NCBI RefSeq assembly: GCF_013426895.1
Contig: NZ_AP023174.1
Coordinates: 372,001 to 436,000 of the forward strand
DNA length: 64,000 nucleotides
Origin: Paraburkholderia largidicola
Lineage (GTDB): Bacteria > Pseudomonadota > Gammaproteobacteria > Burkholderiales > Burkholderiaceae
Direction: 5' to 3'
In this document: positions 10,040 to 13,179 of the stretch, in pieces
Numbering within the stretch: the first letter of the stretch is position 1
Layout of the letters: each line of letters starts with the position of its first letter
Translations under genes and position numbers: made by a program
The notes under the pieces: model-generated
The model's input: only the letters and a program-made list of their open reading frames with translations
Told to the model about the DNA's origin: nothing
Database searches by the model: none

Positions 10040-11885
<1,846 letters not shown>

Positions 11886-11900
11886 TTGACCCTCGCGATT

Positions 11901-11920
11901 CGTCCGATGGATAACGGACG
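11901..11920. other. Small hairpin in the leuA leader before the 54-codon ORF
   Basis: CGTCCG and CGGACG pair across an 8-base loop, a few bases upstream of the ribosome site of the 54-codon ORF. Its role is unknown; it may be part of the alternative leader folds. Confidence 0.35.
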
Positions 11921-11994
11921 AACACAGGCGACTACAGGTTTTGAAGGAACTACGGACTGGGGTGAAACAGGAACTGCTCTGGAGGACCGCCGCG

Positions 11995-12047
11995 AGTCGC
12001 TGTGGCGACTGCGTACGGCGCTACGTCTTGCTTAGGCTAGACGTAGC
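11995..12047 (-). promoter_or_regulatory. Paired stem-loops of the leuA attenuator
   Basis: Read on the minus strand, CGCTACGTC and GACGTAGCG (12040-12048 and 12019-12027) form a 9-bp stem that includes the last two CTA leucine codons and encloses the leader stop codon. A second stem AGTCGC/GCGACT with a 4-base loop follows at 12010-11995. A ribosome stalled on the CTA codons would prevent the first stem. No U-rich terminator follows, so the ending step could be Rho-dependent or translational. Confidence 0.5.
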
Positions 12048-12106
12048 GATAGGGGCCGCGCTAGGCGGCCGAGGGTAATTCGGAGGGTGTTCGGAATGGA
12101 ACGCAT
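12032..12106 (-). CDS. leuL: leuA leader peptide (attenuator, LeuL-like)
   Basis: A 24-residue ORF starts MRSIPNTLRITL and ends LSLRLA. Six of its residues are leucine (positions 8, 12, 15, 19, 21, 23); the last four all use CTA, a very rare codon in this G+C-rich genome. This is the classic design of a leucine attenuator leader: poor tRNA-Leu charging would stall the ribosome late in the ORF and change folding of the RNA that follows. It lies 334 bp before leuA on the same strand. No Shine-Dalgarno is visible and the promoter predicts a transcript starting near its AUG. Confidence 0.85.
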   Translation of the reverse strand: MRSIPNTLRITLGRLARPLSLRLA

Positions 12107-12112
12107 CTTTAC

Positions 12113-12142
12113 AAGATAAGCGAGGCGGCAGTGGCCTGTCAA
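12113..12142 (-). promoter_or_regulatory. Promoter of the leuL-leuA transcript
   Basis: On the minus strand a consensus TTGACA (12137-12142) is followed after 18 bases by TATCTT (12113-12118). Seven bases further is the A of the leuL ATG at 12106, so the RNA may be leaderless. Confidence 0.65.
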
Positions 12143-12210
12143 CCCGCTATTTGCTGCGATGCGTTCGCGAGAGCGTTCGCCGAGGCAAGCCGGACGGCTG
12201 TCGGCCCTTG

Positions 12211-13179
12211 TCAGGCGGCCTTCTGCGCGATCTCGACGATCAGCTCGACCTGGCGCGTGATCGCGGCCGGCACGGGCGCTTCGCCGTTCAGCACGGCGGC
12301 GATCCACGCCGCCGTGGTCGGCGCGTCGCGGCCTTCGGGCAAGTCGACCTCGGGCGCATCCGGCGACGAGCGCTCGGCCGAGATGCGTGTCTCGCAGATG
12401 CCGTCATGCAGCCAGTCGATCTGAACCTGGCGGCGCGTGTCGGCGACGGCCTCGCCTTCGGTGCCGCGCGCGAGCAGCGCGCCGCCGACCGCCATGGCGG
12501 GATGCGAGACGAACAGCTGAGTCAGGCTTTCGCGATAAGGCGGATGCGTGTAGTTCACGAGCCGCAACCCCGCCGGCGCGAAAGGCTGCAGAATCTTCAC
12601 GAGCGTGTGCGTCGAATTGCGCACACCCATTCTTCGACGCAGCGATAGCAGCCGCGCCAGCTTCGGCGCGAGTGTTCCGATGGGCGCGAACGCGAGCCGC
12701 TGATTGGCGAGGCTCGTTTCGATATCCGCGTGCGTCTGCGCGGGCGCGAGGTTCAGATGCGCAAAGATTTCGGCGCTCGTCACGCGGCCCGGATCTTCCG
12801 TCACCCCGTGCACCAGCACCGGCACGCCTTCGCGCGCGAGCAGCAGCGCCAGCAGCGGCACGAGGTTGGGCTGCTTGCGCGCGCCGTTGTAGCTCGGGAT
12901 CGACACGGCTTGATACGCATCGTGCTTCACCGCGACGGGCTCGAACGAAGCGTGGGCGGCTGCGAGCATCGCGGCCAGCTCGTCGGCGGATTCGCCTTTC
13001 ACGCGGTACGCCAGCAGGATCGCACCGAGTTCCAGGTCGGAAACGCGGCCGTCGAGCATCGCGCTGTAGAGCGCGTGCGTGTCCTCCGGCGTGAGCGCGC
13101 GCGCGCCGTTGGGACCGCGGCCGATTTCCTTGATGAATCGGGCGCAGGGAAAGGGAGTGGTGTCGGTGAGATCGGTCAT
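12211..13179 (-). CDS. ybiB: YbiB-type protein (glycosyltransferase/TrpD2 family, nucleic-acid binding)
   Basis: This 322-residue protein resembles anthranilate phosphoribosyltransferase in fold (ALTPEDTHALYSAML, DLELGAILLAYRVKGES) but lacks the phosphoribosyl-diphosphate signature of true TrpD. The family includes E. coli YbiB (TrpD2), known to bind nucleic acid without sequence preference and linked to the SOS response. ATG 13179 gives the family N-terminus MTDLTD; the frame is open further upstream without good start context. It precedes leuA on the same strand, but leuA has its own promoter, so linkage is positional only. Confidence 0.8.
   Translation of the reverse strand: MTDLTDTTPFPCARFIKEIGRGPNGARALTPEDTHALYSAMLDGRVSDLELGAILLAYRVKGESADELAAMLAAAHASFEPVAVKHDAYQAVSIPSYNGARKQPNLVPLLALLLAREGVPVLVHGVTEDPGRVTSAEIFAHLNLAPAQTHADIETSLANQRLAFAPIGTLAPKLARLLSLRRRMGVRNSTHTLVKILQPFAPAGLRLVNYTHPPYRESLTQLFVSHPAMAVGGALLARGTEGEAVADTRRQVQIDWLHDGICETRISAERSSPDAPEVDLPEGRDAPTTAAWIAAVLNGEAPVPAAITRQVELIVEIAQKAA

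Follow-up and report, generated by a model that had tools for sequence, protein, structure and literature searches.

Enterobacterial attenuators of the leuL type consist of a short Leu-rich open reading frame (ORF) upstream of leuA, in which rare Leu codons act as control codons and are covered by an RNA stem. A leader of similar build lies before leuA in Paraburkholderia largidicola, in the 64,000-nucleotide stretch of DNA analysed here (the window). It has in common with the leuL type a short ORF rich in Leu codons, the use of rare Leu codons, a stem over them and the position before leuA. Unlike the leuL type, the locus has no U-run terminator after its leader hairpins, a predicted leaderless start and a second leader-like ORF. 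We consider it probable that the locus is a leucine attenuator of leuA in which a leaderless leader and a tandem second leader act in a row.

The LEU element of Actinobacteria is the nearest known system in gene and layout. Its description (PMC1262725) includes a leader with a run of leucines upstream of leuA, a pseudoknot and no obvious terminator; the Leu codons of the leader are said to pair with the Shine-Dalgarno (SD) sequence of leuA, and translational control is proposed. The P. largidicola locus shares with the LEU element the leucine leader before leuA and the lack of an obvious terminator, and its helices D and E (below) may cross as in a pseudoknot, but the LEU element has one leader and this locus has two.

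Two further systems resemble single features of the locus. The attenuator transcript of trpL in Sinorhizobium meliloti begins with the ATG of the leader (PMC7298713), a leaderless start as predicted here, but that system concerns tryptophan and has one leader and a transcription terminator. The Salmonella mgtCBR operon has tandem attenuators, with a single long leader that holds two short ORFs (PMC3641672); two short ORFs are also found here, but the gene and the signals of mgtCBR are others and amino-acid synthesis is not involved. A search of the open-access literature found no description of the Burkholderiales leader family or of its combination of features. Leucine leaders, leaderless leaders and tandem attenuators are each known, and it is their combination across several families of the order that looks new.

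The first leader and its promoter

12113..12142, minus strand: sigma-70-type promoter, with -35 TTGACA at 12142-12137, -10 TATCTT at 12118-12113 and an 18-nt spacer
12106 (ATG) to 12032 (TAA), minus strand: first leader ORF (leuL-like), MRSIPNTLRITLGRLARPLSLRLA and stop, predicted to be leaderless
10040..11698, minus strand: leuA, 2-isopropylmalate synthase, 552 aa, named from plasmid-record annotations of homologues

The first leader has 24 codons, of which six encode Leu: CTC, CTC and four times CTA, at codons -17, -13, -10, -6, -4 and -2. CTA accounts for 19 of the 1628 Leu codons (1.2%) in the 41 CDS-like ORFs of the window. The binomial probability of at least four CTA among six Leu codons is 2.7e-7, a value without correction for the search that first brought the ORF to notice. 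The first-pass annotation had described this ORF, with its six Leu codons and four rare CTA codons, and both its coordinates and its counts are right. On the other side of the promoter, the ORF 13248-12211 (minus strand), which we take to be YbiB/TrpD2-like, ends about 70 nt before TTGACA.

Far from being lost in relatives, the outcome that the first-pass annotation had named as contrary to its reading, the leader with its CTA codons precedes leuA in 79/79 loci (76 distinct). These loci comprise 69 with a full-length leuA (24 plus 45 more of the genus), five with a shortened leuA and five named Paraburkholderia/Burkholderia. There were 70 full-length leuA1 matches, and 69 upstream regions were used, G069 (residues 1-513 only) being left out; L033 and L035, copies of L008 and L009, were excluded from the leader count. 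A strict pattern caught the leader in 76 loci, and in the remaining three it is present with one pattern residue altered. Among the 76 distinct loci CTA occupies codon -6 in 76, codon -4 in 76, codon -2 in 73 and the fourth place in 70. The exact leader motif was found in 10/21 sampled genomes, and all 10 carry leuA of this type. A search of the whole P. largidicola genome for a second copy of the first leader gave no significant match. As a separate observation, six copies of the motif CTTTCGCTACGCCTGCCCTAA are present in this genome (G000:C1 and C2), perhaps as part of a repeat.

The C-terminus of the leader, LSLRLA, is strongly kept (73/76), as would suit a small functional protein in which the CTA codons were incidental. 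This explanation is nevertheless very improbable: residue 4 is variable (I, F, V, Y, L) while the rare codon stays at fixed places, and the last codons sit in an RNA stem. Sequence comparison gives good support to the proposal of the first-pass annotation that leuA is preceded by a leucine leader. What that annotation missed is the probable leaderless start, the second ORF with its RNA element and a terminator-like hairpin, all described below.

The promoter scan found one promoter against a shuffle mean of 0.1, and its -10 TATCTT ends 6 nt before the leader ATG. TTGACA stands 36 nt before the ATG in 73 of the 76 distinct loci and 37 nt before it in the other three, and in all 76 the Shine-Dalgarno motifs GGAG, GAGG and AGGA are absent from -18 to -4. 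It is from this spacing and the absence of an SD motif that a leaderless first leader is predicted; with a normal sigma-70 promoter, transcription would start at or adjoining the A of the leader ATG. The nearly constant spacing between promoter and AUG suggests that the sensor has leaderless initiation as an invariable component. In 35 leaders of other loci TTGAC lies 36 nt (22 leaders) or 37 nt (13 leaders) before the ATG, a count that is illustrative only, since an upstream TTGAC was one criterion by which these leaders were hand-picked from 73. The main text of the B. cenocepacia start-site map does not contain the name leuA. At locus L100, from a gammaproteobacterial MAG, a leader MATLRNIFALSINSALLLNLLLRL (then stop) begins 37 nt after TTGAC, upstream of leuA, which suggests that the layout extends beyond Burkholderiales.

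Hairpins A and B behind the first leader

12020..12047, minus strand: hairpin A, a 9-bp stem with two inner pairs, which covers the final Leu codons and has the stop codon in its loop; arms GCTACGTCT with AGACGTAGC
11986..12019, minus strand: hairpin B, G+C-rich, abutting A and followed by CCUCC

The 9-bp stem over the CTA codons that the first-pass annotation had noticed is real (12047-12020), and its second hairpin adjoins this stem at 12019-11986. The alignment of the two hairpins holds 55 of 58 sequences, with L156, L158 and L159 left out. In these 55 distinct sequences 96.4% of the cells of hairpin A are paired, with one-sided changes only and no double change. Slid controls of the combined A and B structure reached at most 51% paired, and the structure does not beat shuffles in cells paired (218/500) or in covariation (67/500). 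Helix B is only 42.6% paired on the MAFFT alignment, in which gaps scattered its right arm, and it was recounted with both arms anchored. In the 54 distinct sequences so anchored the third base pair of B is C-G in 38, U-A in 15 and C-A in 1, a double change that probably arose at clade level and not in many separate events.

The order promoter, leader, hairpins, leuA is that of a classical leuL-type attenuator, in which A would serve as pause hairpin and B as intrinsic terminator, with no part for the second ORF; that A takes in the stop and the Leu codons nearest to it, and that a G+C-rich B adjoins it, fits this layout as well. However, the longest T run in the 25 nt after B is at most 3 in 69/75 loci, 4 in five and 5 in one, and a scan of 11600-12250 gave no terminator-like match at B. 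For want of a U-run, hairpin B was rejected as an intrinsic terminator. Conserved blocks, moreover, run past hairpin B into the start of the second ORF (the conserved-block pattern missed one of 29 loci, L015), which also counts against a classical leuL-type attenuator and leaves it improbable. Folds with a mock ribosome gave no clear alternative (antiterminator) structure.

The second small ORF

11899..11922, minus strand: hairpin C (TTCGTCCG...CGGACGAA), directly 5' of the SD of the second ORF, from alignment and RNAalifold
11890..11894, minus strand: Shine-Dalgarno sequence GAGGG of the second ORF
11721..11885, minus strand: second small ORF, 54 aa, starting MHVAW, interpreted as a second leucine leader in derived form
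11796..11807, minus strand: leucine tract of the second ORF (TTG CTC CCG CTA)

In the window the second ORF ends 22 nt before leuA, and in 44/63 loci with a located start it overlaps the start of leuA. Its differences between loci are spread over the three codon positions as 1859/2429/2322 (434 non-independent pairs); there is no third-position bias and therefore no indication that the peptide is under selection. The leucine tract pattern is present in 30/76 loci (three of the 76 are duplicates), and the ORF itself is missing by pattern from 5/73. As judged from these alignments, it is the start region of the second ORF that is conserved and not the peptide, while the tract and the D/E element described below are conserved in one clade. 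The lack of amino-acid constraint, the limited occurrence of the tract and the absence of the ORF from some loci together indicate that part of the genus can do without the second stage.

The leucine tract and the RNA element of the second ORF match a leader that ends ...LSLLLPIGCRA (then stop) and adjoins leuA in Oxalobacteraceae, Alcaligenaceae and Cupriavidus. In Oxalobacteraceae, to which 28 loci were assigned by genus name, the second leader stands at the same place, has its own SD and ends in L..LPIGCRA, LPIACLA (each before the stop) or variants of these. Both leader ORFs are present in 22/28 of these loci, and the D/E model matches two more (L037, L040); of the remaining four, L041 has the second leader only, L064 and L080 have the first only, and L095 comes without upstream sequence. 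Alcaligenaceae (e.g. L044-L047) and Pandoraea L076 have a single LPIGCRA-type leader before leuA. A different leader is found in Pandoraea L087 and L092, and Cupriavidus L193 has the LPIGCRA-type ending together with the D/E element (59.8 bits).

The D/E RNA element

11741..11790, minus strand: D/E element, matched in the window with 15.8 bits and E 0.054 (weak)
11789-11779 with 11763-11753, minus strand: helix D, of which 9/11 pairs form in the window
11769-11765 (GTGGC) with 11745-11741 (GCCAC), minus strand: helix E

The loop of helix D holds GUGGY, and GCCAC downstream is its partner in helix E, so that the two helices are predicted to cross as those of a pseudoknot would, just before leuA. 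Among 73 loci of other types, the D/E ending was found by pattern in 35 distinct stretches, which left 28 distinct other-family sequences after trimming. In these 28, helix D has 96.4% of its cells paired and 6/11 of its pairs changed on both sides; none of 500 shuffles reached as high a covariation (0/500), and slid controls were at most 57% paired. A second set of 21 Paraburkholderia-type sequences does not include the tract-bearing rows without a recognisable D/E (L005, L007, L024, L122 and L125). Here helix D is 77.5% paired and helix E 98.1%, and three sequences show a double change from G-C to C-G in helix E. Against 500 shuffles, the D/E structure of the 21 sequences did better in most measures but not in all, with counts of shuffles as high of 15 for cells paired, 5 for covariation, 125 for double-change pairs and 474 for pair types.

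A covariance model trained on these 28 sequences from other families, with no Paraburkholderia among them, matches the element within the second ORF in 12/19 sources, with E from 1e-7 to 0.054. These are the window and 11 Paraburkholderia-type loci (L010 and L013, both with E 1e-7, and L160, L023, L145, L031, L121, L032, L002, L004 and L003); in the other seven of the 19 (L005, L006, L008, L019, L021, L024 and L143) there is no D/E match at the element. Searched against the whole P. largidicola genome, the model gave no significant match, the window being second best with E 3.98. In a sample of 150 genomes of the order the element was found at E <=0.01 in 12, with the genome of P. largidicola not among them. 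It lies 30-175 nt upstream of leuA of the same type, on the same strand, in 10 of these 12; the other two matches are among the weakest, and in their genomes no leuA of this type passed the threshold. Given the matches inside the second ORF and the occurrence of the element next to leuA elsewhere, the second ORF of the window is most simply a derived LPIGCRA-type leader. This kinship and the helices A, B, D and E can be read from the aligned nucleotides themselves, as can the first leader, its conservation, its codon bias and its promoter spacing.

Rfam covariance models run over 11000-13000 gave five matches, all far below gathering. On 14 loci they gave one gathering match only, at L028, beyond the 3' end of leuA. 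This match (L028:1350-1489) is to RF02421 (Burkholderia sRNA Bp1_684) and lies just 3' of a leuA of the second type, on the other strand.

Candidate off-switches: intrinsic termination, Rho or translational control

11829..11847, minus strand: hairpin F, an 8-bp stem followed by CTGTTTGTTC, terminator-like, inside the second ORF
12080..12088, minus strand: ACCCTCCGA, codons 7-9 of the first leader, a candidate anti-SD by its complementarity to the second ORF's SD region (RNAalifold)

The first-pass annotation had noted that a U-run is absent and had suspected an unusual ending. This holds for hairpin B, but the terminator-like hairpin F at 11847-11829 was overlooked. Hairpin F is the only terminator-like site in 11600-12250, where one was found against a shuffle mean of 0.5. 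A terminator-like hairpin is present near this place in 46/73 loci, at about -124 to -157 from leuA, with changing stems and weak tails. Any of hairpin F, Rho and translational control may be the off-switch in the window.

Rho would be a variant of the last step of the tandem-leader reading. When the first leader is finished, Rho would load on the untranslated, C-rich stretch 11990-11905 and end transcription there, and this termination would be blocked by ribosomes that have stalled or that translate the second ORF. The stretch contains 29 C vs 18 G, counted within it alone, and no intrinsic terminator-like site, as such a mechanism would have it, but the terminator-like hairpin F stands further downstream. 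We regard termination by Rho as possible, with the balance tilted against it.

In pure translational control, transcription would never be ended and the first leader would only open or close the start sites downstream. Several features are in keeping with this: the pseudoknot-like D/E element directly before leuA, the overlap of the second ORF with the leuA start in most loci, and the candidate anti-SD with its possible coevolution in Oxalobacteraceae, for which the evidence follows. Against it, T runs of 5-7 occur within 25 nt after E in the single-leader loci L039, L042, L047 and L075, and TTTTT in Cupriavidus L193; these look like transcription termination. In such single-leader relatives, the T runs suggest, E may be a terminator and D its antagonist. 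On this evidence pure translational control is rather unlikely.

RNAalifold, applied to 71 sequences, predicts a helix between ACCCTC in the first leader and GAGGGT at the SD of the second ORF, and Oxalobacteraceae keep such a pairing with quite different sequences (e.g. L055/L065, L088). The pairing was compared with permuted partners in 14 of the 22 Oxalobacteraceae loci, the near-duplicates L051, L054, L057, L062, L065, L071, L072 and L074 having been taken out. Between nt 1-45 of the first leader and the second start site, matched pairs gave -15.4 vs -13.2 kcal/mol for permuted pairs (25/20000; repeat 31/20000), a result that is suggestive only, because the segment was chosen after the data had been seen. 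For other parts of the leader in the same family the permutations gave 528/20000 (whole leader) and 13918/20000 (3' part). When two Paraburkholderia-type loci were added to the 14, the value was 1/20000; in 14 Paraburkholderia-type loci alone, the pairing of nt 1-45 was not significant (2448/20000) and the whole leader gave 665/20000. Seven shifted control segments gave 399/20000 at -100, 1094/20000 at -75 and at least 3651/20000 at the others. There was no excess of pairing between nt 1-45 and the leuA start (19523/20000), and in single loci other pairings score better than that with the start site. Comparing duplex energy with synonymous recoding did not single out the start-site pairing, with 1/200 for L088 and at least 0.095 for the others among the 27 loci listed, and was set aside as a criterion. 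The permutations are thus suggestive of coevolution between the first leader and the second start site in Oxalobacteraceae.

Proposed mechanism

In the tandem-leader reading, transcription would start at the AUG of the first leader and ribosomes would read a leaderless message. A shortage of charged leucyl-tRNA would stall ribosomes on the CTA codons; with an ample supply they would complete the leader and leave, and hairpin A would close. About 150 nt further on lies the SD-led second leader, which would descend from the '...LSLLLPIGCRA' (then stop) and D/E leader type of other Burkholderiales. Stalling or queuing of ribosomes on the first leader would hold the start site of the second ORF open, and translation of the second ORF would avert the ending of the message (by hairpin F or Rho) and bring ribosomes to leuA. 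In this scheme we infer leaderless initiation, a response of the leader to leucine supply and all that follows the stall.

A more specific form of this reading is a relay, which we put forward tentatively, as less likely than not. Ribosomes on the first leader would mask or free the anti-SD and so set translation of the second leader, which in turn would decide whether leuA is transcribed and translated. Leucine would then be the amino acid read by both leaders, and the long-range pairing between them would have coevolved from family to family.

These loci point to a family of leucine leaders that is widespread in Burkholderiales. Its members form a natural series of single leader, tandem leaders and decayed second leader, along which the evolution of a two-step attenuator may be traceable.

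Other leuA leaders and shortened leuA1 genes

The D/E model gave no match in three actinobacterial loci (L191, L192 and L195). Two of these, L191 and L192, have the short ORFs MLRGLLLSCRGGGL and MQFGLLLLSCRDESSD before leuA. The ATG of the MQFGLLLLSCRDESSD leader stands a few nt after a -10-like TACGCT, and this leader may thus be leaderless too.

A second type of leuA in Paraburkholderia has a leucine leader of its own, MYRAQT.LSLLLARSTGLGLLLRAS. (then stop), with small variations (L025-L030, L077, L081 and L082). This leader has CTA codons and a hairpin CTAGCCCG...CGGGCTAG.

In L156-L160 (G028, G018, G016, G031 and G021), whose genomes contain the second type of leuA as well, the similarity to leuA1 stops after about 330-353 residues. 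The leuA1 ORFs of L157 and L160 end soon after ...HPYAG. The shortened leuA1 may be a decaying gene or a catalytic-domain-only enzyme, and the upstream leader is kept in all five loci.
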